A stretch of DNA of 63,698 bases. Origin: an uncultured Eubacteriales bacterium. Lineage in GTDB: Bacteria > Bacillota > Clostridia > Oscillospirales > Oscillospiraceae. The notes beneath the pieces are model-generated. The model worked only from the letters and a program-made list of their open reading frames with translations. It had not been told where the DNA came from and did not search any database. How positions within the stretch are numbered: position 1 is the stretch's first letter; each line of letters opens with the position of its first letter. Shown one piece after another: positions 25,902-39,352 of the stretch. The DNA lies in NCBI GenBank assembly GCA_900317375.1, contig ONGJ01000003.1, forward strand, positions 1-63,698, in the 5' to 3' direction. The position numbers and the translations under genes are program-made.

Positions 25902-26441
25902 TTATTCTTCCGGCCTTCCTCTGCGGATGAGCAGGCGGCGCAGACGTTTTTCGTAAACCAGCGTCATCACAGCACAGGTCCGGTCATAGAGGAACATCAG
26001 CCCTATCATCATGGCATAGAACAGCAGGCTCAGCCAGAGCTCTTCCCGGATGTCAGTCATGCCGACAACGAAGAGCAGGATGAGAACCATGCATGCAATC
26101 GACACGGTAAAAACCGCGAGTTTTGCCAGAAACCGCAAGGACTTTGACCGGATCCGGTCAAGGTCCGGCTTGATGATCGGATAAAAGCCGGTGAACAGAT
26201 AAAAAAAGGCTTCTTCCCGGTCGGCACAGAGCATCATCGCGAGCGCTGCCGTTACCGCCCAGGTCATCCAGGCAGATTTCTTTCCGAACTCATAAAGGAC
26301 CGGGATCAGCGTCATACCCGCAAGCATCGGGGAGACATAGGTCAGCACCGGGATCAGATTGCCGGTGAGCATGAAGGCTGCGCCCAATGCCGCCATCAGC
26401 GCGCAGAACGAGGTCCGGTAAGCTGTATTCCGATATCTCAT
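25902..26441 (-). CDS. Uncharacterised polytopic membrane protein
   Basis: A 179-residue protein with about five hydrophobic helices and a short basic C-terminus (RLRRLLIRRGR). The N-terminal half (LMAALGAAFMLTGNLIPVLTYVSPMLAGMTLIPVLYEFG) loosely resembles integral-membrane substrate-binding components of ECF transporters and DUF2232-like proteins, but I cannot assign it. The ATG at 26441 sits in TGATG with the stop of the upstream diguanylate cyclase, with GGAGG four bases before it, so the two are co-translated. A sensory or transport function linked to c-di-GMP would be only a guess. Confidence 0.65.
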   Translation of the reverse strand: MRYRNTAYRTSFCALMAALGAAFMLTGNLIPVLTYVSPMLAGMTLIPVLYEFGKKSAWMTWAVTAALAMMLCADREEAFFYLFTGFYPIIKPDLDRIRSKSLRFLAKLAVFTVSIACMVLILLFVVGMTDIREELWLSLLFYAMMIGLMFLYDRTCAVMTLVYEKRLRRLLIRRGRPEE

Positions 26442-27541
26442 CATCCCTCCGCAGAAGGCTCTCTTCTGTGCCGCCTGTCTCTTCCGCTGTTCCTGTAATA
26501 AGCCGCCTTCTCGGCATACATCATGCTGTCCGACCGCTGGAGCAGGTCGTCGACGGATGCCGCGCCGTCATCCAGATGGCTGCAGCCGATGGAACAGCTG
26601 TATTTTGTCTCTGCAACCTGTTTTTTGAGATTCTCTACAAGCTGCAGCATCTCCGCCTGCGAGGTCTTACGGCAGATGATGACGAACTCATCGCCCCCGA
26701 GCCGGTAGCAAAGCTGATTTCTTTTCCGGGCCCGCAGGATGCACATCGCCAGTGCGGTCAGCGCTTCATCGCCGGCCTTGTGTCCGCCGTTGTCGTTGAT
26801 AGCCTTCAGACCGTTCATATCGACGGAAACCACGGCCGTGATCTCCTCCGGGTCGCTGCTGATGTCGGCATAATATGCCTGCCGGTTCAGAAGGCCTGTC
26901 AGCGCGTCTACTTTTGTCAGCTTCAGAATCGAAAACACGTAGTAGACGTACAGCGCAATCGCAATCGTCGTGCAGAAGATGCGGGAATAGTCCCTGCCGT
27001 ATATGAAGGGCAGAACCAGACCGGAGGCAAAGGAGGAGCCGAGGAACGCAATCGGAATAATCTCGAGCACCTGTTTGTTGCTGCGCTTGATCAGGATATA
27101 GATCAGAAAAACGCAGTACAGCCCGACCATGATAAACGGCAGATAGCCGAGAGGGCCCCGGCGGAACACGCCGTCGTCGCCGATGCTGAAAACAAGCCCG
27201 TTAAAGATGGAGAGGACGTTGATGACCGCAAGGCCCATGGCGGGCAGGAAGATGAACCATCGCAGTTCCTTCACCAGGGTGAAAATGACCATCGCAAGGA
27301 TGAACGGCGTTGCACTGTACCGAACCGCCATCAGGACAAGCCGGGCATTTGCATGCCCGCCCAGATCGGTCAGATAAAACTCCGCAAACACGACGAGGGA
27401 CAGAAGGAAAACGGCAACAATCAGAATGTACATGCGCCTGATGGTTGTCTTATCCAGGAAGACGGTCTCCTTCAGCGAGACGGCAAAAGCCGCCAGGATC
27501 AGAATCATCCCCCAGTTCCACAGTATGTACTGCTTAATCAT
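26441..27541 (-). CDS. Membrane-bound diguanylate cyclase (GGDEF)
   Basis: A 366-residue protein: about six membrane helices (residues 5-195), then a GGDEF domain starting KVDALTGLLNRQAYY with the active-site LGGDEFVI and the C-terminal RSDSMMYAEK. It would make c-di-GMP from two GTP. The inhibitory RxxD site is absent at its usual position (KRNQ instead). The ATG at 27541 follows AAGGA; a GTG two codons upstream is possible. It is the third of three successive diguanylate cyclase genes. Confidence 0.9.
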   Translation of the reverse strand: MIKQYILWNWGMILILAAFAVSLKETVFLDKTTIRRMYILIVAVFLLSLVVFAEFYLTDLGGHANARLVLMAVRYSATPFILAMVIFTLVKELRWFIFLPAMGLAVINVLSIFNGLVFSIGDDGVFRRGPLGYLPFIMVGLYCVFLIYILIKRSNKQVLEIIPIAFLGSSFASGLVLPFIYGRDYSRIFCTTIAIALYVYYVFSILKLTKVDALTGLLNRQAYYADISSDPEEITAVVSVDMNGLKAINDNGGHKAGDEALTALAMCILRARKRNQLCYRLGGDEFVIICRKTSQAEMLQLVENLKKQVAETKYSCSIGCSHLDDGAASVDDLLQRSDSMMYAEKAAYYRNSGRDRRHRREPSAEG

Positions 27542-27645
27542 AGACACATCCTTACATCCTTTTCCGGGTACCGTTCATCGGCAAACCACGCCCCGGTTCA
27601 TTTCAGACAGACTGTGCGCGGCCGAAACCGTCTCCGCTCTGCGCG

Positions 27646-29151
27646 CTATTCGGCGAAGGTCAGGCAGTTTCCGGGGGTTTTCTTGCTGACGTACATGGCG
27701 TTGTCGACTTTTGAATACAGGCTGTCGAACGACTCCGCTCCGTCACCGGCGGTGAGCACGGCGCCGACACTGATGCTGATCTTCTTATCGCCCAGTTCCG
27801 GGATCTCTGTCTCCCCGAGGTGTTCAAACAGCCGGTGAATGAGCCGCTCGCCCATCCCGCGGTTCGGGATACCGACAGCATAAGCACCGAACTCATCCCC
27901 GCCCAGACGCACAAGGATATCATTCGAGCGGAAGGTCTTGCGCATGGCATCGGCCACGGCGACGATCACAAGGTCGCCGGTCTGATGGCCGCAGGTATCG
28001 TTGATTTCCTTGAAGTGGTCGATATCCAGCTCCAGAAGCATACCGCCGGTCCCCGAACGCAGGCTCTCTTCCACCTTGCTCTTTCCGCTGACATGGTCAA
28101 ACAGCCCGGTCATGCGGTCCGTTTCGGAGAGCACCTGCAGGGCGTCCCCGCGCTGTTCCTCCTCGCTGACCCGGGTATGAAGCTGTTCCAGCGCCAGATT
28201 CTTCGCCGTCATGCGCAGGAAGACGAAAACCAGAAGCACGACGACCAGCGCCAGAATCACATAGAAAGAAATCAGGATGTTCTGAAGGGGACGGTACCAG
28301 ATGTCGGAATTGATCAGGCTGACGCTGTACCAGCCGCCGCGGAGCTGATCGACATAGACCGAACAATTCCCCTCCGCCGTCTCCAGATCGAACTGTCTCT
28401 GACCGTCCTCGAGGATCCTGCGGGCAATGGCCCCGCCGAGGCTGTCGCTTTCCTGGAGATAGTTTTTGCCCAGCTGTGTTTTGTCGGAATGGGCAACGAC
28501 GATGCCGCTGCTGTCAAGCACGAAAGCCTCGCTGCCTTCGGCGTCCGAGGAAAGCTCTTCCACGATCCTCTGGATCTGGTCAAGGCTGACATCCATGGCG
28601 ACAACGCTTTCCCCGTCGCTGAGAAGCGTGGACACCGTCATCATGATGGTGTCGGTCTGCATATCGAGGTAGGGCTTAACAAAGGTGATCTTTTCGCCGG
28701 AGCTGCGGGTCTCGGTATACCACGGCCGCTCGACCGCAACATAGTCTGCGTCAGGGACCCAGCCGGCGCCGTCAAGGTATTCGCCGTGAATCCATCCGTA
28801 CAGGCCCGTGGTGCTGGGGTCAAGCGAGGCGCCGATGTAGGAGGTTTCCTCCGTGAGATATTCTTCGATAGCGCGGTTTTCCGTGCCGGAGTGAAGCATC
28901 TGATCCACGGCATAACCGACGACCGTGACGATATTGACGCGTGTCAGAAGGCACTCGTCATACTCCATTGCCGCCTCTTTGGCGTTCAGTTCGCCCCGTT
29001 GCTGCAGCACCGTCTTTTCCATGGCATAGAACCGGTTCCCGATATAAGCCGTCATGGTAACGGTAATCAGGAATATGCAGAGCGCCGCGGCAACCGTCCG
29101 AAGTCCGATATGCCGCAGGGTGTCTTTCAATGATTGTTTTTGATCTTTCAT
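27646..29151 (-). CDS. Diguanylate cyclase with extracytoplasmic sensor domain
   Basis: A 501-residue protein: membrane helix at about residues 15-35, an extracytoplasmic dCache-like sensor (about 40-285, with GYAVDQMLHS and GVVAH-like strands), a second helix near 290-310, a short coiled linker, and a GGDEF domain with LVRLGGDEFGAY. The RSND tetrapeptide five residues before GGDEF is a complete RxxD inhibitory site, so product feedback is likely. The ATG at 29151 has GAGGA about seven bases upstream. It probably binds a small extracellular ligand. Confidence 0.9.
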   Translation of the reverse strand: MKDQKQSLKDTLRHIGLRTVAAALCIFLITVTMTAYIGNRFYAMEKTVLQQRGELNAKEAAMEYDECLLTRVNIVTVVGYAVDQMLHSGTENRAIEEYLTEETSYIGASLDPSTTGLYGWIHGEYLDGAGWVPDADYVAVERPWYTETRSSGEKITFVKPYLDMQTDTIMMTVSTLLSDGESVVAMDVSLDQIQRIVEELSSDAEGSEAFVLDSSGIVVAHSDKTQLGKNYLQESDSLGGAIARRILEDGQRQFDLETAEGNCSVYVDQLRGGWYSVSLINSDIWYRPLQNILISFYVILALVVVLLVFVFLRMTAKNLALEQLHTRVSEEEQRGDALQVLSETDRMTGLFDHVSGKSKVEESLRSGTGGMLLELDIDHFKEINDTCGHQTGDLVIVAVADAMRKTFRSNDILVRLGGDEFGAYAVGIPNRGMGERLIHRLFEHLGETEIPELGDKKISISVGAVLTAGDGAESFDSLYSKVDNAMYVSKKTPGNCLTFAE

Positions 29152-29293
29152 ACGGATCCTCAACGGCTTGTTCCAGGGTATTCTTCACCCAGCATCTACC
29201 GGGATCATAATAGCACGCAGAGTATCACAAAAGCGTCACACGCAGTCTGCACGGCAGCATGACGAATACGACGCGGCCGGATATGCTTTTCTC

Positions 29294-30724
29294 TTATCTG
29301 CTTCTTTTCAGTTCCGGATGAAGCGCATAGTATCTGCGTTTATCCTCATACATCTTTTCATCCGCTTTCTGGAGCGCGGTCCGCACGTTCCTGCAGTCAT
29401 CCTCAACATCACAGCCGATTGCAAAGCTGACGTTGTTTTCTGACGCTTCATACTCTCTGATCAGGCGTGCTTTCGCCTCCATCTCCTCCGCGGTGGTACC
29501 GGGGACGATCACCGTGAACTCATCGCCGCCGGCGCGGAAAATCTGATCATCGCGAAACACCCTCCGGAGTACGCGAACCGCCCTTCGGATCAGGTCATCG
29601 CCCGCAGGATGGCCCTGGGTATCGTTGACGGTTTTCAGCCCGTTCAGGTCGGCAAACAGTGCGCCGACGGGCACGCCCGGCGATATCCTTCCGTCGCTCA
29701 TCCGATCCACATTGTTGTTCATCTCGTTGCGGTTCTGCACGCCGGTCAGCATGTCGCGGGAGCTCAGGATCTGCAGACGTTCGAGCAGCAGATGATTTCC
29801 GATCTCCGCACCGAGAATGAAGGTCGTCAGTTCCAGCGTTTCCTTGATTTTCGGCGCATCCTTCTCGTCAAAGCCCGTAGCCCAGATATAGCCAAGGCGC
29901 TCATTGCCCGACTTCAGCGGGAAAAGGACGATGGAAGAAACGTGGTTTTCCACCAGCGACTGATACCATCCGGGGTTCCGCTCCCTGACCACTTCCATGT
30001 CCCGGGGATTTTTGGCGATCAGGCAGTTGCTGCCGTAAATCGTATGCTCCCACGATTCGGCAAGGTCATAGAAGGTATCGTCAACGATCTCCGCCATGGG
30101 CTTTTTGGGGCCGTCCTCCGCGACATCCTCGCACAGGACCGAGCAGGTCCGGGTAACCGGCTCCATGAGGAGGATGCAGCACTGCTTTGCCAGGCAGATC
30201 TCCCGGATATCCTTGATGACATCCGCCATCGCCGCTTTGAAATCCGTCGTGCCTCTAAGCTTGATCGTGGTCTCCAGAACCGCGGATGCCAGTTCGCCCG
30301 AGACATTGGAAAGCCTGGTACTGTCGGCAACCGGGTTGATCTCCATCGTATAGGTGCAGAAGCACAGGTTTCCCTCGTCCGGCACCAGCGGGAGAAAGGT
30401 CATATTAAACCAGACGTCAAAGCGGTCCGGATGCGCATAGGAATGCAGGCAGCGTTTTTCAACGGCCGCACGATAGCAGTAGTCCTCAAAATTGAGATCC
30501 CTTGTCATATATTCCGTGTACAGGCTGTTCGGTGTAAACCGGGTGGTCAGCATCTGCACGTCACCCATGGGGTGCTCTATGGAATCGATATACGCCCTGT
30601 TGCCGGTGACGATCCGCAGGTCGCCGTATCCGCCGTCTTCCAGTTTTTCCACCGAGACAACACAGGTCATGGCCCCCATGCTGTCAACCACTTTCTGAAA
30701 GTCCACCGTCTTTCCCCCGATCAT
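29294..30724 (-). CDS. Cytosolic PAS-like/GAF sensor diguanylate cyclase
   Basis: A 476-residue protein without membrane helices. Residues 1-about 140 look like a PAS-type domain (SMGAMTCVVSVEKLEDG onward), 145-310 like a GAF domain (ILLMEP, SSIVLFPLKSGNERLGYIW), and 320-476 are GGDEF with FRAGGDEFTVIV. The inhibitory RxxD is out of register (RDDQ). The ATG at 30724 has a weak site; a GTG six codons later (30706) preceded by GGGGGA is a good alternative. It is the first of three adjacent c-di-GMP synthase genes. Confidence 0.88.
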   Translation of the reverse strand: MIGGKTVDFQKVVDSMGAMTCVVSVEKLEDGGYGDLRIVTGNRAYIDSIEHPMGDVQMLTTRFTPNSLYTEYMTRDLNFEDYCYRAAVEKRCLHSYAHPDRFDVWFNMTFLPLVPDEGNLCFCTYTMEINPVADSTRLSNVSGELASAVLETTIKLRGTTDFKAAMADVIKDIREICLAKQCCILLMEPVTRTCSVLCEDVAEDGPKKPMAEIVDDTFYDLAESWEHTIYGSNCLIAKNPRDMEVVRERNPGWYQSLVENHVSSIVLFPLKSGNERLGYIWATGFDEKDAPKIKETLELTTFILGAEIGNHLLLERLQILSSRDMLTGVQNRNEMNNNVDRMSDGRISPGVPVGALFADLNGLKTVNDTQGHPAGDDLIRRAVRVLRRVFRDDQIFRAGGDEFTVIVPGTTAEEMEAKARLIREYEASENNVSFAIGCDVEDDCRNVRTALQKADEKMYEDKRRYYALHPELKRSR

Positions 30725-30909: not shown

Positions 30910-31623
30910 TTACTGATAGCAGAGGCGCATGCGAAAGACGTCGCGCCCGGTTTCCCCGGCGAGAAAATACTCCCCGGGGGAAGCCTCGCCCCAGCGGAGA
31001 TGAAGCGTTTCACCAAGGCGGGCTTCGTTCTGATACTCGGCCGCAATGCTCTTCAGGCGCGCACCGGCAGCGGCGGCGCCGATGCAGTCCTCCGCCAGGT
31101 CGAAGTAACGGGTATTGTTCATATGGCCGTTGAGGTCAACGAAGCTGTAGGGCACGGTAAAATCCTGCGCGTCGGTGCAGTCCGCCCTGCGGACCGAAGC
31201 GGGCATGGCGATCTCCTCTCCGGTCACGACGCCCTCGATCTCGACGCCGACCTTTTCGGGAAAGACGACCCTGCGTGTTTCGGCATCCACAAGGCTCCAC
31301 AGCGCACTGGCCTTCAAAAGCGGCTCGCCGGAGGCGGTTTCGAGACTGGCATAGCGGGGAAAGAGCAGATGCATGGTCCTGCCGGGCCAGCTTTTGAGGA
31401 CGACCGTCTCATCGTACTCCGGCATGCGCGTGATTTCCGCGCGCTGCATCAGCAGGACCCACAGGATTCCCCTGTCAAGGGTCTTGTTGCGCCCCATGCC
31501 AAGCTGTTCGGTATGGCGGATGGCAGCCTCCTGCAGCATCCTGAAGAGTTCGGAAGTACGCAGCCGCCGGTAGAGATCGACATCCTTGCTGCGCAGGAGG
31601 ACCGACTCGGCATAAACGCTCAT
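30910..31623 (-). CDS. Acyl-ACP thioesterase
   Basis: A 237-residue double hot-dog enzyme of the bacterial FatA/FatB-like acyl-ACP thioesterase family (PF01643), which releases free fatty acids from ACP. The N-terminal half has SELFRMLQEAAIRHTEQLG and RGILWVLLMQRAEITRMP; the C-terminal half has SFVDLNGHMNNTRYFDLAED, with the family's conserved Asn/His. It overlaps the ACP gene by four bases. The placement beside a dedicated ACP and acyl-activating enzyme suggests it ends a small acyl-processing pathway rather than bulk fatty-acid synthesis. Confidence 0.92.
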   Translation of the reverse strand: MSVYAESVLLRSKDVDLYRRLRTSELFRMLQEAAIRHTEQLGMGRNKTLDRGILWVLLMQRAEITRMPEYDETVVLKSWPGRTMHLLFPRYASLETASGEPLLKASALWSLVDAETRRVVFPEKVGVEIEGVVTGEEIAMPASVRRADCTDAQDFTVPYSFVDLNGHMNNTRYFDLAEDCIGAAAAGARLKSIAAEYQNEARLGETLHLRWGEASPGEYFLAGETGRDVFRMRLCYQ

Positions 31624-31865
31624 GCCAGGCGCTTATAGATGGCGTCCACAACGTCGCCGAGGGTCTGCAGCTTTTTCCACTGGCGTTCGGGAATGCGCAC
31701 ATCGAACAGGGCCTCAAGCTTGCAGATGATCAGTACAAAGCCCATCGAGTCGATGGCGGTCTCGTTGTTGATGACGGTGTCCTCAGTCAGTTCCTGATCC
31801 TTCAGATCGGGAAAGCAGTCAAAAATGACGCCTTTGGTCTTTTCCAGAACTTCTTCTCTGCTCAT
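31620..31865 (-). CDS. Acyl carrier protein, dedicated copy
   Basis: An 81-residue ACP. The phosphopantetheine serine lies in ETAIDSMGFVLIICKLE, where the usual DSL is DSM. The acidic four-helix pattern is intact and the protein ends with a lysine/arginine-containing tail. It overlaps the acyl synthetase gene upstream and the thioesterase downstream by four bases each, so all three are made together. The unusual DSM and context argue that it is not the housekeeping AcpP. Confidence 0.93.
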   Translation of the reverse strand: MSREEVLEKTKGVIFDCFPDLKDQELTEDTVINNETAIDSMGFVLIICKLEALFDVRIPERQWKKLQTLGDVVDAIYKRLA

Positions 31866-33205
31866 GCGCTTTCCATCACTTTCTGCTGGAGTTCCCAGCG
31901 TTTTATTTTACCCGTCTGCGTCCGCGGCAGCGGTTCATCGGTAAAAACGACCTCGGCAATCTGTTTTCCGCGCGGCTGCCTGCGCATCAGGGGCCGCAGC
32001 TTTTCCATGACGGCGGAAGCGTCTCCGGAACCGCAGTATATAAGCGCCGGGCGCCCGCCTTTCAGGACGACCGCCAGCTCCATATGCTCAAGGGTCTGCA
32101 TCAGGGCCGATTCGTACTCGGGAAGAAAGATCTTGGTGCCGTCGGAGAGGACCAGCATGTCCTTTTTCCGGCCGGTGATATGCAGGCGGCCGTCCTCGTC
32201 AAAGCAGCCCAGATCCCCCGTATGCAGGACACCGTCACGCAGGACCGCCCGCGTGGCATCCGGGCGTTTGTAATACCCCTGCATCATGCAGGTCGGGGCC
32301 TGAATCAGAATCTCGCCGTCATCGGCAAGCGTGATCGTATCATCCGGGCAGACCTCCATGGCATAAGGGTCACCCTGCACCGAGATGGCAACCCCCGAGC
32401 TCGTCTCGGTCAGGCCGTAGCCGAAGCTGACGTGCAGCCCCAAATCGGTCGCCGCCCGGAGAAGCTCCGGCGCGCAGTCCCCGGCGCCGACAAGGATGAG
32501 CCTTAGCTCGGGGTTGACGCACTTCTGCTGCAGGAGAAAGCCCAGCAGCATCGGGACCACCGACACCGCCGTCGGGCGGTAGAAATCGCAGTCGTCCAGA
32601 TAATGGCGCGCGCCGCGGCCGAGAGAGACGCAGGCGCCGCAGCTGAGCCCCCACAGGAGGCCGCAGACGAAACCGAACACGTGGCTCAGCGGCAGCAGGC
32701 ATAAAAGCCTGTCATCCGGCGTCAGGGGGAGCTTTGCCGAACCGTTCCAGGCGCTTTGACACAGGCTGTGATCGGTGAGGACAACGGCCTTGGCCTGTTC
32801 CGTCGTGCCGGAGGTGAAGAAGAGGATCCTCCCCGCCCCGTTCTTCACGCCGCCCATCAGGGCGAGCTCGAGGTCCTCCTTCAGGTCTTCCTCCCCCCAG
32901 AGCGTATCGACATCGGTGTAGCGGATCAGCGTCCGGAGCGTGTCGGTGTCGAGGGAGGCGTCCAGCATGACAAGCTGGAGTCCGGCGAGATTGGCAGCAA
33001 AAAGCTCGATCACACTGTCGAGACTGCCGTCGCAAAGCAGGCCGAGGCTGGTCTTCCTTTCTGCGCGCAGCATCGCGGCGCGGGCATCTACGGCATGCTT
33101 CAGCTCGGAAAAGCTGAGGGTCTTATCGTCATATCGGAGCGCAGGGGCATCCGGGCCGGTTTCGGCCAGATGGGCAAGCATTTGCTCAAAGCTGTCAAAA
33201 CGCAC
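31862..33205 (-). CDS. AMP-binding acyl-CoA/acyl-ACP synthetase
   Basis: A 447-residue adenylate-forming enzyme, somewhat shorter than usual. The ATP loop is FFTSGTTEQAKAVVL (A3), then VSFGYGLTETSSGVAI (A5), HTGDLGCFDEDGRLHITGRKKDML (A7/A8) and the C-terminal catalytic lysine in PRTQTGKIKRWEL (A10). With the ACP and thioesterase directly downstream, it probably loads a free fatty acid onto that ACP. The start is GTG at 33205 with AGGAGG before it. It is divergent from the isomerase operon across a 207-bp gap. Confidence 0.92.
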   Translation of the reverse strand: MRFDSFEQMLAHLAETGPDAPALRYDDKTLSFSELKHAVDARAAMLRAERKTSLGLLCDGSLDSVIELFAANLAGLQLVMLDASLDTDTLRTLIRYTDVDTLWGEEDLKEDLELALMGGVKNGAGRILFFTSGTTEQAKAVVLTDHSLCQSAWNGSAKLPLTPDDRLLCLLPLSHVFGFVCGLLWGLSCGACVSLGRGARHYLDDCDFYRPTAVSVVPMLLGFLLQQKCVNPELRLILVGAGDCAPELLRAATDLGLHVSFGYGLTETSSGVAISVQGDPYAMEVCPDDTITLADDGEILIQAPTCMMQGYYKRPDATRAVLRDGVLHTGDLGCFDEDGRLHITGRKKDMLVLSDGTKIFLPEYESALMQTLEHMELAVVLKGGRPALIYCGSGDASAVMEKLRPLMRRQPRGKQIAEVVFTDEPLPRTQTGKIKRWELQQKVMESA

Positions 33206-33412
33206 GGGGCACCTCCTGTTCTTTTTCTTTATGATAGCATAGATTGCGTCCGTTGGGAAGACATCTGAGAAAAAAGCCGCCGGAATATTTGTCGATTATG
33301 ACATTTTTCTCAAAGTGTATAATGATATTTTCGGCAGGTTGTTGTATAATTTTTCTTATCATGGCAGTTTTTTGAAAACGCACTCATGAAAAACAAAAAA
33401 CGGAGGAAAACT
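33206..33412. promoter_or_regulatory. Divergent promoter region of the fatty-acid system
   Basis: This AT-rich gap drives both operons. On the plus strand TATAAT occurs at 33318-33323 and 33345-33350, the second likely serving the isomerase gene; no good -35 box is seen, so an activator may be needed. On the minus strand TATCAT (near 33236) is a weak -10 candidate. No clear palindromic operator was found. Confidence 0.55.
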
Positions 33413-34801
33413 ATGGACAAAAACATTCGCATCGCCATTATCGGCGGCGGCCCGGCCGGTCTGAGCGCCGGTATGTATCTGGAGCAGAAGGGCTATGAAA
33501 ACTACACGATTTTTGAGCGTCTGGACCGCGTGGGCGGCAAGTGCTGGAGCCCGCATTACAACGGACGTCGGTATGAGATGGGCGCCATCATGGGCGTCCC
33601 CTCCTACTATGCGGTGGAGGATGTCGAAAAGTTCTGCGGCATCACGCACGACGGTCCGAAGCTGAACCGCAATTACAAGGACGGCAGCGGCAACGTCATT
33701 GAGCCTTTTGCGAAGACCTTTGCCAATCTCATCCGCAACCCCTGGCTGCTGAAGATGAAGAAGCAGCTGACCGCCTTCGGCGAGCTGCTGGAGACCAAGT
33801 ACAAGGGCTATGACCTCAACGGGCACCGGGGTGTGGCCGAAGGCCGCTATGACGGCTATGCCGTGACCCCCGGCCGCGAGCGCGTACAGGGCGAGAACCC
33901 GAACCTGAAGGACCTGGCGATGCCGTTCAAGGATTTCTGCAAGCTCAACGGCGTCCCCCTGGTGCAGAAGATCTGGATCGGGCCCTTCACCTCGTTCGGC
34001 TACGGCTATTTTGACGAGATCCCTGCGGCCTACGTCCTGAAGTATCTGGATTTCCAGACCTGCATGAACTTTGTCAAAGTCAACCTCTGGACCTGGAAGG
34101 AAGGCACCCAGTACATCTGGGAGCAGCTGAACGACCACCTGAAGCATCCGGCCCGGCTGAACAGCCAGATCAGCAAGGTCGAGCGCAGGGACGGCAAGGT
34201 CTATCTGACCGTCAACGGCAAGGTCGAGGAGTTCGACAAGGTCATCATGACGGCGCCGCTGTACATCCCCGACGAGAGAGCGGACGGCCAGGTCGGCATG
34301 GACAAGTACTGGGACATTCGCGACGACGAAAAGGCGCTGTTCTCGAAGATCGACTACGAGCGCTACGACGTGCAGGCCGTCCTCACCAGGCCGGAGGATC
34401 ACCCTGAGATCTCGTACTATGTGTTTGACAACATGGTTCCCGAGAAGCTCGGCCACCTGATGGTCTATTACCGCCGCTGGAAGGACCAGATCGACCAGGT
34501 CATCACCACCTATGCCCTGCGCAAGCACAGAGACATGGCCGAGATTCCCTACGAGACCTGCAAGCAGATGGTTCTTGACGATCTGAAGACCATGAAGAAC
34601 CCGGCGAAAGAAGTCATCAACGAGTGGAGCGTGTATTACTTCCCCCATGTCTTCTCCGCCGACTATGCCGACGGCTGGTACGACAAGGTCGAAGCCATGC
34701 AGGGCAAGTACGACACCTTCTATGCCGGCGAGATCATGGCCTTCGGCGACATGGACGAGACGGCCGAGTACTCGAGAGAGCTGGTCGAGAGGTTCTTCTA
34801 A
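33413..34801 (+). CDS. Polyenoic fatty acid (linoleate) isomerase homologue
   Basis: A 462-residue FAD enzyme. It closely matches, from memory, the Propionibacterium (Cutibacterium) acnes fatty acid isomerase PAI (424 residues) that makes trans-10,cis-12 conjugated linoleic acid: IAIIGGGPAGLSAGMYLEQ, RVGGKCWSP, RRYEMGAIMGVPSYY, LLETKYKGYDLNGH, the FGYGYFDEIPAAYVLKYLDF and LWTWKEGTQ segments, and the ending TFYAGEIMAFGDMDETAEYS. The N-terminal GxGxxG is the FAD site. The ATG at 33413 has CGGAGGAAAACT before it. It is first of three genes, the next starting right after its stop. It could act on linoleate or other polyunsaturated acids; the substrate is inferred. Confidence 0.88.
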   Translation: MDKNIRIAIIGGGPAGLSAGMYLEQKGYENYTIFERLDRVGGKCWSPHYNGRRYEMGAIMGVPSYYAVEDVEKFCGITHDGPKLNRNYKDGSGNVIEPFAKTFANLIRNPWLLKMKKQLTAFGELLETKYKGYDLNGHRGVAEGRYDGYAVTPGRERVQGENPNLKDLAMPFKDFCKLNGVPLVQKIWIGPFTSFGYGYFDEIPAAYVLKYLDFQTCMNFVKVNLWTWKEGTQYIWEQLNDHLKHPARLNSQISKVERRDGKVYLTVNGKVEEFDKVIMTAPLYIPDERADGQVGMDKYWDIRDDEKALFSKIDYERYDVQAVLTRPEDHPEISYYVFDNMVPEKLGHLMVYYRRWKDQIDQVITTYALRKHRDMAEIPYETCKQMVLDDLKTMKNPAKEVINEWSVYYFPHVFSADYADGWYDKVEAMQGKYDTFYAGEIMAFGDMDETAEYSRELVERFF

Positions 34802-36358
34802 ATGAAGTTTTATAAAGATCATTACGATGTGATCATCATCGGCGGCGCGCTGGCAGGCATGAGTGCCTGCCTGCAGCTGCAGGCCTGGGGGATCAAGGAC
34901 ATCCTGATCCTCGAAAAGCATAACATGCCCGGCGGTCTCGCGACGGATTTCGTGCGCAACGGGTTTGAGATTGAGGCAACGCTGCACGAGATGATGAGCA
35001 TCGGTCAGCCGGGCAAGCGCCTGAAGGTCGGTCAGTTCTTTGACGATATGGGCGTGAACATCGACTGGCTGCCGGTGCACGAGTGCTACCGCGTGGCGCT
35101 GCCGAACTCCGGGATCGACAAGGTCCTGCACCACGACTATGACGGCAGCTATACGACCGTGGCAAAAGAGATCGACGAGGTCTGCCCCGGTACCTATGAA
35201 AAGGTGCATGAGCTGATGCTGCTCTGCAGACGGGTCTATGACAGCATGAATACGCTGTCGGTGACCCCGATGAGCAAGGTGGAGATGCTGATCAAACATC
35301 CGGACTTTGTCAAGACGGTTGGCTATACCGCAACCGAGGTCATCAACACCTTCGACCTGCCGAAGAAGGCCGTGGAGATGCTGACGCCCTACTGGATCTA
35401 CGTCGGCAACCGGATGGACGATCTTCCGTTTACGATCTACGCCTTCCTGATGGCGGACTACTTTACCGGCTCGTATGTATGCAGAGGCTTCAGCCACGAG
35501 ATGAGCATGAAGATGCAGGCGAAGTGCGAGGAAAACGGGGCGCAGTACGAGTTCAACCAGGAGGTCGAAAAGATCCTGGTCAAGGACGGTAAGGTCACCG
35601 GCGTGCGGACCGCGCGCGGAGACGAGATCTCCTGTGACTACGTCATCTCGGGGCCCTATCCGAACCGGGTCTATACCCAGATGATCGAACCGCTGAGTGC
35701 GGTGCCGACCGCCGCCATCCGGATGATCAACAACCGGAAGCTGTCCGTGGTGCCGGTCAGCGTCATCATGGTCATCGAAGGGACGCCGGAGGAGAACGGC
35801 ATCACGAACTACTCGACCTTCTCCGGCACGACGATGGACACGAACAAGATCTGGGAGAACTATTCGAACCTTACCGAGCCTTATAACTATGTGACGACAA
35901 TCTGTCTGAACTATGCCAACCCGACCCTGCCGGAGGGCTACACCCAGCTGAGCATCACGGCGCTGGTGCCCTCCAAGCCCTTTGAAAGCATCAAGGAGGA
36001 AGAATACTTTGACCTCAAGCGGCGCCTCGCCAACGAGATGATTGAAGAGTGCCTCCGGGTCACGAAGGTGGACTTCCGTCCGCGCATCACCGAGATCGAG
36101 ATCACAACGCCCATCACGGTGTCCCACTATGTCGGGGCCTGGAAGGGCAACATCTACGGCTATCTGCATTCGATGGAGGACCACGCGGTGGCAAGGCTGC
36201 AGATGAAGGAGAAGGATCACTTCATCGATGGTCTCGAGTTTGCCGGGGCGCACGGCATGTCCGGCGACGGCATGGGGCCGCAGATCACCAACGGGCGTGC
36301 GGCGGCAAAGGCCGTGAAGGAGGACATGGAGAAGAAAAAGGAGGCGGCGAAGGCATGA
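34802..36358 (+). CDS. CrtI/retinol-saturase-like FAD oxidoreductase
   Basis: A 518-residue flavoprotein of the phytoene desaturase/CrtISO/RetSat superfamily. The FAD-binding strand is YDVIIIGGALAGMSACLQLQ with EKHNMPGGLATDF; the C-terminal FAD contact is EFAGAHGMSGDGMGPQITNGRAA. Homologues desaturate, isomerise or saturate carbon-carbon double bonds in lipids. Next to a fatty-acid isomerase and an NAD(P)H reductase, I infer a double-bond reductase, but a desaturase or second isomerase is possible. It begins one base after the preceding stop codon and overlaps the next gene (ATGA). Confidence 0.85.
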   Translation: MKFYKDHYDVIIIGGALAGMSACLQLQAWGIKDILILEKHNMPGGLATDFVRNGFEIEATLHEMMSIGQPGKRLKVGQFFDDMGVNIDWLPVHECYRVALPNSGIDKVLHHDYDGSYTTVAKEIDEVCPGTYEKVHELMLLCRRVYDSMNTLSVTPMSKVEMLIKHPDFVKTVGYTATEVINTFDLPKKAVEMLTPYWIYVGNRMDDLPFTIYAFLMADYFTGSYVCRGFSHEMSMKMQAKCEENGAQYEFNQEVEKILVKDGKVTGVRTARGDEISCDYVISGPYPNRVYTQMIEPLSAVPTAAIRMINNRKLSVVPVSVIMVIEGTPEENGITNYSTFSGTTMDTNKIWENYSNLTEPYNYVTTICLNYANPTLPEGYTQLSITALVPSKPFESIKEEEYFDLKRRLANEMIEECLRVTKVDFRPRITEIEITTPITVSHYVGAWKGNIYGYLHSMEDHAVARLQMKEKDHFIDGLEFAGAHGMSGDGMGPQITNGRAAAKAVKEDMEKKKEAAKA

Positions 36359-37545
36359 GCATCAAGGTCAAGGGTTTCCTGAAGGATGTAGGCGGCGCAT
36401 CACGCGTTACGAAACTGCGGGAAGAGAATTTCGCCAACGGCTCGCCGAGGCCCGACCCGAAAGACCCGATCCGGGAGCTGGCCGACAAGCTGCATCCGGA
36501 GCACATGGTCTTCCGCTGCGTCGATATCCGCGAGGCCTCCCCCTCGGCGCGCGTATTCCGCTTTGAGAGCGCGGACGGCCACATCCCCTGCTTCCAGAGC
36601 GGCCAGTACGTCAACTTCCGTCTGAAGATCGGCGACAGCGTGCTGTCAAGGCCCTACACCATTTCCTCGGCCCCCTATGAGGCCAGAGGCGACAAAGGCT
36701 TCTTTGAGATCACGGTCCGGCGCAACGTGCCGTACCTCGTGCCGGACTGGCTGTTTGAGAACGTAAAGGTCGGGGACGAGCTTCAGGGCGCACTTCCCTT
36801 CGGCTTCTTCTATTACGAGCCGATGCGCGACAGCAGGGATGTTGTGGCGCTTGCGGGCGGAAGCGGCATCACCCCCTTCCACTCGATGGCGAAGGAGATC
36901 GCCTATGGCAAGCTGAAGGGCGTGAAGCTGACGATTCTGTACGGCTCGGTCAAGGCAAACGACATCGTGCTGAAGGACGAGCTGGACGCCATTGAAAAGG
37001 CCTGCCCGGATGTAAAGGTCGTGCACGTGCTGTCGGACGAGCCCGACTGGCCCGGCGAACAGGGCTTCATCACGAAGGAGATCATCCGCCGTTATTCCAC
37101 CGAGGGCTGCACGTACATGTTCTGCGGGCCGCTGCCGATGTTCCGCTTTGTGAAGACGGCGCTGGACGAGCTCGGTGTCGGTCCCCGGCGCTTCCGACAC
37201 GACGTGGTCAACAACCCCGCGGATGTCTCGACCCTGCCCGGTTATCCCAAGGGCACGGAGGAGAAGACCTTCAAGATCACGGTGCTGCGCGGCATCCACG
37301 AGGACATCATCGACGCCAGGGCCTCTGAACCCGTAGCCGTCAGCCTCGAGCGCGCGGGCATCGCCATCGACACCCACTGCCGCAACGGCGAGTGCGGCTT
37401 CTGCAGAAGTCATCTGCTGGAGGGTGAGATTTTCGTCTCGCCCATCGGCGACGGCAGACGCCGGATGGACAAGGAGATGGGCTGGTTCCACGCCTGCTCG
37501 TCCTGGCCGCTGACGGATCTGAAGATCAAGATCCCCATTATGTAA
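36355..37545 (+). CDS. NAD(P)H-flavin reductase with C-terminal [2Fe-2S] ferredoxin domain
   Basis: A 396-residue electron-transfer protein. After about 60 residues comes the FAD domain (RPYTISSAPYE, near residues 95-105), the NAD(P) domain (ALAGGSGITPFHSMAKEI and MFCGPLPMF), and a plant-type [2Fe-2S] domain with DTHCRNGECGFC plus the distal Cys in HACSSWP. This order (FNR then ferredoxin) resembles phenol hydroxylase-type and CMP-deoxyhexose dehydrase reductases. It overlaps the saturase-like gene by four bases and probably supplies it with electrons from NAD(P)H. A terminator follows. Confidence 0.92.
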   Translation: MSIKVKGFLKDVGGASRVTKLREENFANGSPRPDPKDPIRELADKLHPEHMVFRCVDIREASPSARVFRFESADGHIPCFQSGQYVNFRLKIGDSVLSRPYTISSAPYEARGDKGFFEITVRRNVPYLVPDWLFENVKVGDELQGALPFGFFYYEPMRDSRDVVALAGGSGITPFHSMAKEIAYGKLKGVKLTILYGSVKANDIVLKDELDAIEKACPDVKVVHVLSDEPDWPGEQGFITKEIIRRYSTEGCTYMFCGPLPMFRFVKTALDELGVGPRRFRHDVVNNPADVSTLPGYPKGTEEKTFKITVLRGIHEDIIDARASEPVAVSLERAGIAIDTHCRNGECGFCRSHLLEGEIFVSPIGDGRRRMDKEMGWFHACSSWPLTDLKIKIPIM

Positions 37546-37593: not shown

Positions 37594-37711
37594 CTTTCAT
37601 GTGATAAGCACCATTTTTGCGGTCCGTTCCTTTTTCCTTCCGCTGTCTTCACAGACGCCTCTCTTTATGGTAGAATACCAAAAAGCCAAAGAATGGAGAG
37701 GAATGATACCA

Positions 37712-39352
37712 GTGAAACAACGCAGCCCTTCCCTTCTTCCCGCCATCCTGTGCGGCCTCTTTCTGTTTCTGCTTCTGATGCCGCTGTGTGCCTCTGCCGA
37801 GTCGGCAGATCCTTATTTCTCCAAAAGCGATTATAACGATGTGGTCGCGGAGCCTGCAGACGCCGTGATCACCCTGGAGGGGGATCACGGCACCCTTTCC
37901 GACACGACGAGAGGCCGGTCCGGAAACCCCGTCGTCATCGAACGGAAAGGGATCTACCGCATCACCGGAAGCTCCGACGGCGTCACCATCCAGATCCGTG
38001 AGCCGAAGAAATCCGGTAACGTCTATCTCATCCTCGAAAATGTCTCCATGGTCAGCAGGGACGGTCCTTGCATTGCCTCCCTCGCGGCGGAGAAGACGAT
38101 CATCCAGTGCACGGGCGACAGCTCTCTCACCTGCAGCGCAGACAAAGGCGCGGCCCTGTATTCGGAGGACGACCTTACCGTCAACGGGAGCGGCCGGCTG
38201 AACATCGAGTCGGGCAAAAACGGGATTCAATGCAAGGGCGTCCTGCGCATTACCGGATCCCGGCTGCTGGTCCGGGCAGAGAACGACGGCTTCAAGGGAA
38301 AGCACGGCATCTATATGGACGGCGGCAGCGTGACCGTCGAAAAAAGCTATGAAGGCCTGGAAGGCGGCCAGGTCCTGGTTTTCGACGGAAACCTGCAGGT
38401 GACAGCCAGCGATGACGGCATCAACGCCGCATCCGATGAAAACAAGCTGCAGGGCGATGTGCGGATTTCCGGCGGAAGCGTTGCGATTCACGCCTCCGGC
38501 GACGCAATCGACAGCAATCATTCCATCGTGATAGACGGCGGGACCGTGCTCGCGGAAGGCCCCGGAAACAACCGAAACAGCATTTTTGACAAGGGGGACG
38601 GGAAAGACGCCGTTCTTTGCGTAAACGGCGGTACGGTTCTGGCAGTCGGAAGTGCCGAGAAGGCGAAGAATTTTTCAGGCGGCACGCAGTATTCCCGGCT
38701 TGAGCCTGTCTCAGGCCACGCCGGAGATGTAATTTCGGCAGACGACGGCAGTGGAGTCCAGCTGCGTGCATCCAGGGATTTCAGCTGCGTGATCTACTCC
38801 AGCCCGTCCTTCACGGAGAGCAGCCGGATTCAGATCACCTCCGGCTCTCCGACGGGCAGGGCAGACCTTGAGCAGGACCCGTCTGTCATAGCGGAGAACC
38901 CCTTCATGGCCATTGCGGTTCAGGAAGCGCTGGAAGGGATCACGTATCAGCACGGAGGTCCCTTCGGATGCGTGATCGTCAAGGACGGGGAAATCGTCGG
39001 TCTGGGACACAACATGGTGCTGGCAGGCCATGATGCCTCGGCACACGGAGAAATCCAGGCGATCCGGGATGCGGGTCATAATCTGGGCACCCACGATCTG
39101 TCCGGATGTGATCTCTATACGACCGGCGAGCCCTGCCCCATGTGTCTGTTTGCCTGCCTCTGGGCCAATATCGACCGGGTTTACTACGGATGTACGATTG
39201 AGGACAACAGCGTGATCGGTTTCCGGGACGGCGGATTTTCCGACTTGGTGGACAAAGAGTCCCTGCCGGATGACTATCTTGTCTGCATCGACCGGGAAGC
39301 CTGCCTCCGGCTGTTTGAGGAGTATCAGCGCATCTCGCACACCCTGTATTGA
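37712..39352 (+). CDS. Exported beta-helix (Cthe_2159-type) protein fused to a guanine-deaminase-like domain
   Basis: A 546-residue fusion. GTG 37712 (GGAGAGG ten bases upstream) gives a signal peptide: KQRSPSLLPAILCG, a hydrophobic core and a cleavage site near CASAES. Residues about 40-390 are repeated beta strands of the Cthe_2159 carbohydrate-binding/parallel beta-helix type (AALYSEDDLTVNGSG, GIQCKGVLRITG, DDGINAAS, DAIDSNHSIVIDGG). The last 155 residues match guanine/nucleoside deaminases: GGPFGCVIVKDGEIVGLGHN, the zinc motif SAHGEIQA and GEPCPMC, all catalytic residues retained. There is no stop or frameshift between them. A deaminase on an exported scaffold is unusual; the substrate is unknown. 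Confidence 0.82.
   Translation: MKQRSPSLLPAILCGLFLFLLLMPLCASAESADPYFSKSDYNDVVAEPADAVITLEGDHGTLSDTTRGRSGNPVVIERKGIYRITGSSDGVTIQIREPKKSGNVYLILENVSMVSRDGPCIASLAAEKTIIQCTGDSSLTCSADKGAALYSEDDLTVNGSGRLNIESGKNGIQCKGVLRITGSRLLVRAENDGFKGKHGIYMDGGSVTVEKSYEGLEGGQVLVFDGNLQVTASDDGINAASDENKLQGDVRISGGSVAIHASGDAIDSNHSIVIDGGTVLAEGPGNNRNSIFDKGDGKDAVLCVNGGTVLAVGSAEKAKNFSGGTQYSRLEPVSGHAGDVISADDGSGVQLRASRDFSCVIYSSPSFTESSRIQITSGSPTGRADLEQDPSVIAENPFMAIAVQEALEGITYQHGGPFGCVIVKDGEIVGLGHNMVLAGHDASAHGEIQAIRDAGHNLGTHDLSGCDLYTTGEPCPMCLFACLWANIDRVYYGCTIEDNSVIGFRDGGFSDLVDKESLPDDYLVCIDREACLRLFEEYQRISHTLY

Follow-up and report, generated by a model that had tools for sequence, protein, structure and literature searches.

A candidate polyunsaturated fatty acid isomerase-saturase system encoded in a conserved six-gene block of ruminant-gut anaerobes

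The polyenoic fatty acid isomerase (PAI) of Cutibacterium acnes has been described as a single enzyme. So why is its close homolog in a gut anaerobe embedded in a compact block of six genes, and could these genes jointly encode a pathway? The question is raised by a 63,698-nucleotide stretch of DNA (hereafter, the window; contig ONGJ01000003.1 of GenBank assembly GCA_900317375.1) from an uncultured Eubacteriales bacterium of the family Oscillospiraceae, in which two divergent operons span positions 30910 to 37545; the assembly comprises 3.08 Mb, is 94.75% complete, and includes the window as contig 89. Both the existence of the block and its conservation are well established. The proposal that we develop here from homology and gene order is that the block probably represents a dedicated polyunsaturated fatty acid (PUFA) isomerase-saturase system of ruminant-gut anaerobes.

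Conservation of the block

The plus-strand operon encodes the PAI homolog, a predicted FAD-dependent polyunsaturated fatty acid double-bond isomerase of 462 amino acids (33413..34801), a 518-residue flavoprotein of the CrtI/carotenoid desaturase fold that we predict to be a fatty-acid saturase (34802..36358), and a 396-residue NAD(P)H-FAD-[2Fe-2S] reductase, the predicted electron donor to the saturase (36355..37545). The minus-strand operon encodes an AMP-forming acyl ligase of 447 residues with a GTG start (31862..33205), predicted to join acyl chains to an acyl carrier protein (ACP), a dedicated ACP of 81 residues with a DSMG attachment serine (31620..31865), and an acyl-ACP thioesterase of 237 residues (30910..31623); an intergenic region of 207 bp (33206..33412) is common to both operons. 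The six open reading frames (ORFs), two divergent operons and shared gap that the initial annotation had described are all present at these positions. The start codon of the saturase gene directly follows the stop codon of the PAI gene and the reductase gene overlaps the saturase gene by 4 bases, in agreement with the gapless succession noted there, as are the ligase/ACP and ACP/thioesterase overlaps of 4 bases each. Comparison of the six proteins with reference families assigned all of them as in that annotation.

A scan of one genome per species detected 262 stretches with PAI relatives, and the best 80 of these, together with one distant locus (L138, in genome G345), make up the 81 loci examined here. 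All six genes are present in 65 loci, in the same divergent order in 65 of 65; of the 16 that remain, 14 are truncated by the end of a contig, and L035 and L093 are complete when read further out, with the same order and orientation and an additional ~7.4 and ~10.0 kb, respectively, between the ligase and PAI genes. The divergent operons co-occur, then, with the same six-gene order and orientation, in 67 of the 67 loci whose length suffices to reveal the complete set. None of the five window genes that flank the block was found in the 81 loci at more than 45% identity (of the 65 complete loci, 58 extend more than 2 kb past one end of the block and 55 past the other). Because the order recurs and the flanks of the window do not, we have to conclude that the block is conserved on changing backgrounds, and a chance neighborhood is rejected on the same grounds. 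The two inserts lie at L176:4304-14321 (the longer one, in L093, which includes a sodium/proton exchanger ORF) and at L177:4242-11666.

How tightly are the six genes bound to each other in evolution? Across 63 complete six-gene sets (the window and 62 loci), the pairwise distances correlate at r 0.95 for the saturase and the reductase and at 0.79-0.90 within the ligase-ACP-thioesterase group, compared with only 0.31-0.53 between these groups or with PAI. Thus, the block consists of three evolutionary modules, namely, PAI, saturase-reductase and ligase-ACP-thioesterase. In three loci (L054, L056 and L063), PAI is 86-87% identical to that of the window, the saturase 56% and the reductase 52-53%, as though the saturase and reductase genes had been swapped together.

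PAI is the most conserved protein of the block, with a mean pairwise identity of 85% in the same 63 sets, compared with 53-70% for the other five. Could this conservation reflect recent gene transfer? The identity of PAI genes at fourfold-degenerate sites is 0.549, against 0.441 expected from composition; because these sites have diverged so far, the conservation appears to be mostly due to selection, and recent transfer is rejected as the main cause. Nevertheless, the fourfold-site identity of the four other block genes measured is lower than that of PAI (0.432-0.520), so some recent sharing of PAI may have occurred. A plasmid search with PAI yielded one remote match, from Photobacterium (27%), and a plasmid search with the saturase yielded none.

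Within the genus of the window, PAI is present in 39 of 60 other genomes (E < 2e-35), compared with none of 38 genomes from other families of the same order. An even sample of the class contains PAI (E 1e-30 or better) in 3 of 391 genomes, that of the window included, and a sample of the phylum of genome G486 contains it in 2 of 346, G486 included. In the 29 genus loci that were read, which overlap in part with the 80 best-matching loci, the saturase gene follows the PAI gene in every case, once only as a fragment (L031, in genome G048), and the ligase gene lies divergently within 1.5 kb of PAI in 26; the three misses are L033, which is at a contig end, L007, which is the split locus of genome G004, and the decayed block of G048. 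And which hosts harbor these bacteria? An animal is named in 30 of the 80 record titles, and in 30 of 30 it is a ruminant (buffalo, goat, deer, sheep, yak or cattle); many of the other 50 titles carry labels such as RUG, which we take to denote rumen catalogues. According to the titles, a few loci come from Lachnospiraceae, Mogibacterium, Coriobacteriaceae and Sphaerochaetaceae; such assignments are labels of metagenome-assembled genomes (MAGs) and might reflect misbinning.

The isomerase and the flavoprotein-reductase pair

The best PDB match of the 462-residue protein is C. acnes PAI itself (2b9w, E 4.4e-135), with the next PDB sequence at E 2.3e-9, and the two proteins are 54% identical over 416 aligned pairs; 2b9w is also the top Foldseek match of an AlphaFold2 model, a low-confidence one (pLDDT 61.7) that was used for the top fold match only. 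Arg88, Phe168 and Phe193, which are said, in work by Liavonchanka from 2006, to be the substrate-site residues of the C. acnes enzyme, correspond to R86, F195 and F220 of the window protein, and their equivalents are invariant in an alignment of 20 PAI sequences. In all these respects, the protein resembles C. acnes PAI, with which it clusters, rather than amine oxidases in general, and the case for its predicted role as an isomerase is strong. The window genome carries one PAI gene.

Does this similarity extend to the substrate? An identity of 54% leaves room for changed regiochemistry, and the window protein contains an insertion of ~22 residues around positions 140-165, relative to 2b9w. 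The enzyme might then use another substrate, such as a hydroxy or longer PUFA or 18:3, or yield the 9,11 isomer, which would assign the block to a different branch of biohydrogenation; considering that all three substrate-site residues are kept and invariant, we find this rather unlikely.

The 518-residue flavoprotein matches TIGR02734 (E 1.5e-28) and, in the PDB, 4rep, and its fold is of the CrtI type. The reductase combines FAD_binding_6 (PF00970), NAD_binding_1 (PF00175) and Fer2 (PF00111) in one chain, all above the Pfam cut-off, and matches benzoate dioxygenase reductase (1krh, E 1.2e-23); with Pfam, no oxygenase partner for it was found among the other five proteins of the block, and the one encoded next to it is the CrtI-like flavoprotein. 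We regard the predicted assignment of the flavoprotein as a saturase as good but indirect. In a midpoint-rooted tree of 48 saturase-family proteins (the window and 25 of the 81 loci on the PAI-linked side, and 22 unlinked proteins), 26 of 26 PAI-linked proteins and one unlinked protein, from genome G140, form a single clade (support 100/100, branch 1.03) and the other 21 unlinked proteins remain outside; the long branch of this clade meets that of L143/L145, which leaves its nearest outside relative unsure. L140, where the saturase frame contains a stop, was left out of the tree. Nine of the 21 PAI-less congeners, each at least 90% complete, were searched for an orthologous saturase and none has it, the closest relatives being 32-36% identical in four genomes, 29-30% identical in two, and missing in three.

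What could the wider family tell us about the reaction? A saturase relative (E 1e-30) is present in 16 of the 391 genomes of the class sample, that of the window included, and a reductase gene adjoins the saturase gene in 14 of 14 sampled genomes with the family (the window genome and G345 being excluded); in L147, the adjoining reductase gene lies under a longer reverse-strand ORF. The window genome itself encodes two further paralogous pairs. Hand-picked neighbors of such pairs include TetR regulators (L138, L146, L149), a GntR regulator (L136), a GntR/FCD regulator that also matches FadR_C (L140), PlsY (L150) and a diacylglycerol-kinase-family protein (L171); in genome G437, the pair overlaps a PlsY gene, and in G485, a near relative (L173:4156-10315), genes for a GntR/FCD regulator, an AMP-ligase, an enoyl-CoA hydratase/isomerase, the saturase and the reductase stand in a row. 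These neighborhoods favor, without proving it, acyl chains, possibly thioesters, as the substrates of the wider family. A pair matching the one in L173 is found in the window genome on a 3.3-kb contig (L134) and is its sister in the saturase tree.

The proposed pathway and its alternatives

The ligase matches PF00501 (E 7.8e-41), the ACP matches PF00550 above the cut-off, and the thioesterase matches PF01643 (E 9.8e-17; 61.4 bits vs a cut-off of 23.7) and PF20791, as well as PDB 2own (E 2.4e-15). The motifs TSGTT and PRTxxGKxxR in the ligase, DS in the ACP and NGHxNN in the thioesterase are kept in at least 62 of 63 sequences. A second copy of the acyl-ACP thioesterase is encoded on contig C68. 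What would such a module contribute? The window genome encodes four DegV (FakB-like) proteins, whose role as FakB we take to be the entry of exogenous fatty acids; ordinary use of exogenous fatty acids should therefore not need the block ligase, and the block appears to be something extra. Furthermore, a ligase and a thioesterase around one ACP would form a futile cycle unless the bound chain is changed or the two enzymes handle different chains, hence our proposal that reduction or handling occurs on the ACP.

The isomerase-saturase system that we consider probable would operate in three steps. Given that Arg88, which we take to bind the carboxylate, is kept, PAI most likely acts on the free acid, which most likely makes isomerization the first step. 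By close homology, it would take a free cis,cis-diene acid such as linoleate, with the conserved arginine holding the carboxylate, and flavin hydride chemistry would shift one double bond to form a conjugated diene, most likely the trans-10,cis-12 isomer, as in C. acnes. Because the flavoprotein of this anaerobe comes with its own NAD(P)H-[2Fe-2S] donor, it most likely reduces: the fold, the gene pairing and the logic of electron transfer suggest that, once reduced by its partner, it would saturate one double bond of the diene, presumably the one whose loss leaves a trans-10 monoene. In the third and least certain step, the ligase would load the acyl chain on the dedicated ACP, so that reduction would take place on, or the product would be handled as, the tethered acyl-ACP, and the thioesterase would set the processed acid free. 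Such a system would serve to detoxify dietary PUFA, the function that PMC2836310 argues for biohydrogenation in Butyrivibrio, and the block would be a candidate for ruminal biohydrogenation along the trans-10 branch. An extension of this proposal, which we put forward only tentatively, is that the CrtI-fold flavoprotein and its reductase constitute a gut biohydrogenation reductase family, in which the PAI-linked clade would reduce an ACP-tethered conjugated diene of the trans-10 branch, and the paralogous pairs of this and other Clostridia genomes, some of them adjoining FadR-like regulators, an AMP-ligase with an enoyl-CoA hydratase, or PlsY, would reduce other unsaturated acyl chains.

A number of observations weigh against these proposals. 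The flavoprotein scores 99.8 bits with TIGR02734, against a curated threshold of 238.1 bits; most enzymes with the CrtI fold are desaturases, and the common fold leaves the direction of the reaction undecided. The ACP scores under the cut-off with NCBIfam acyl carrier protein models. The distance correlations of PAI with all its partners are weak (0.31-0.50), and tethering during reduction is without direct support because the co-divergence of saturase and ACP (0.51) is no greater than that of PAI and ACP (0.50). Other neighbors of the paralogous pairs are non-lipid (for example, DHO_dh, flavodoxin, URO-D, SDF symporter, M29 peptidase) or unmatched, and the best 80 of the 262 PAI loci lean towards close PAI relatives. 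The incomplete and rearranged blocks point in the same direction. In genome G690, the ligase, ACP and thioesterase genes come after PAI (73%) on the same strand, and no saturase is found in that genome at E 1e-20; in G140, the saturase and reductase frames are open, what has been lost is PAI, the ligase, the ACP and a portion of the thioesterase, and there is no ligase match elsewhere in the genome at E 1e-20; in G048 (L178:5101-6983), PAI (77%) is accompanied by the first 150 saturase residues only, with no reductase. Each of these genomes keeps some parts of the block without the others, so the parts are separable. Neither of the two outcomes that the initial annotation had named as refuting its reading was observed: the 462-residue protein does not cluster with unrelated amine oxidases, and the divergent operons do co-occur in conserved neighborhoods. 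That reading is therefore supported, with the correction that the halves can part.

Two of these three cases can be read as degradation. The genes next to the G140 remnant share 78-97% identity with their counterparts in G345, a genome with the complete block, so that G140 looks like a deletion derivative; the block of G048 appears to be decayed because the saturase is a fragment, the reductase is missing, and the genome encodes no ligase closer than 30% identity. The piece of thioesterase in G140 (L137:10437-11000) is the C-terminal part of the acyl-ACP thioesterase. In G690, the ligase (L170:10654-12063) ends in PRTAAGDVRR, compared with PRTxxGKxxR, and thus the usual catalytic lysine seems to be missing. 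A 622-residue ORF of L170 was considered as an enzyme-ACP fusion and rejected, being an artefact of a reading frame that runs across distinct ligase and ACP genes.

The gene order of G690, with PAI ahead of ligase, ACP and thioesterase and no saturase, would suit an alternative scenario in which the thioesterase frees a chain, PAI isomerizes it, the saturase reduces the free acid, and the ligase reloads the ACP for membrane lipid, such that the block would serve to alter the acyl chains of the membrane, not to detoxify and excrete. The overlap of the G437 pair with a PlsY gene fits this scenario, as does the retention of the carboxylate-binding arginine, given which PAI should act on a free acid. 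However, the four DegV proteins should suffice for incorporation, there is no PlsX or PlsY in the block, and the possession of its own ACP suggests an isolated module; on balance, we deem membrane remodeling unlikely. That the flavoprotein is instead a desaturase or oxidase in a biosynthetic block making a conjugated or polyunsaturated acyl product on the ACP, with the reductase in some other role, is improbable, inasmuch as the paired gene encodes an electron donor that oxidizes NAD(P)H, which is what a reduction in an anaerobe would call for, the block contains no ketosynthase, transporter or other tailoring gene, and some copies of the pair adjoin fatty-acid-type regulators.

Regulation, surroundings and known systems

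The gap between the divergent operons is 103-301 bp long in 58 of 60 cases, and 331 and 610 bp in the other two. In the window, it contains, on the plus strand, TTGTATAAT (33342..33350), a conserved promoter-like (-10-like) or operator-like element, and a copy with one mismatch at 33315-33323. Word counts and shuffles of the intergenic regions, restricted to gaps of 101-329 bp and including the window, detected this motif with at most one mismatch in 49 of 72 gaps, compared with 9.1 on average, and 12 at most, over 20 rounds of dinucleotide shuffling. The copies are mostly on the PAI strand, 40-100 bases before the PAI start, and the motif might function either as an operator or as an extended -10 element. 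Outside the block, three consecutive minus-strand genes for GGDEF-domain proteins (26441-30724) adjoin its thioesterase end. On the other side, a 583-residue ORF (37601-39352) combines a Cthe_2159 carbohydrate-binding domain and a cytidine/deoxycytidylate deaminase domain, which may be a real fusion or a frame effect of the assembly.

How does the block compare with known systems? The CLA-HY, CLA-DH, CLA-DC and CLA-ER enzymes of the gut bacterium Lactiplantibacillus plantarum likewise represent a multi-enzyme conversion of linoleate via conjugated or partly saturated products, as laid out in PMC11271093 and PMC13365329. That route begins with oleate hydratase (MCRA), whereas the window genome, at 94.75% completeness, yields no match to this enzyme (PF06100), and a lactobacillus-type hydratase start is rejected. 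The proposed isomerize-then-reduce order, in the rumen and in the service of PUFA detoxification, resembles that of the linoleate isomerase and conjugated linoleic acid (CLA) reductase of Butyrivibrio fibrisolvens; going by the accessible text of PMC2836310, where the CLA reductase is put at 0.5% of cell protein, this system is known as activities and its product is trans-11, not trans-10, so that the likeness drawn here is one of activities. From the CrtI carotenoid desaturases and isomerases and from retinol saturase, the window flavoprotein differs in falling under the family cut-off, in its 16% identity to 4rep, in having its own reductase, and in its linkage to a fatty-acid isomerase.

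The author of the initial annotation knew of no described operon with this set of genes. For the block as such, this stands within the open-access literature searched, in which we found no description of it; the accessible parts of PMC13365329, PMC12254105, PMC9626764 and PMC11271093 discuss isomerases and name no comparable cluster. PAI homologs themselves had already been reported from the rumen: PMC10019597 describes them in 7 rumen MAGs (Lachnospiraceae, Oscillospiraceae and unclassified) and relates isomerase-bearing MAGs to milk trans-10,cis-12 18:2, and its text contains none of the words reductase, operon and thioesterase. As to the organisms responsible, the accessible part of PMC7339423 states that trans-10 producers are not unambiguously identified, and names C. 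acnes as a producer among 28 cultures while describing this species as being of very low abundance in the rumen.

Biohydrogenation in the rumen influences the fatty acid composition of milk and meat; its trans-10 branch, whose enzymes have yet to be firmly identified, has been linked to milk fat depression. If our reading is right, the block equips rumen Clostridia that are largely uncultured with a set of genes that can be tested for the formation and reduction of the conjugated intermediate, and, as a marker in metagenomes, it could offer greater specificity than the isomerase by itself. Should the saturase-reductase pair prove active, it would provide a gene family for a reductase step that has long been known as an activity.

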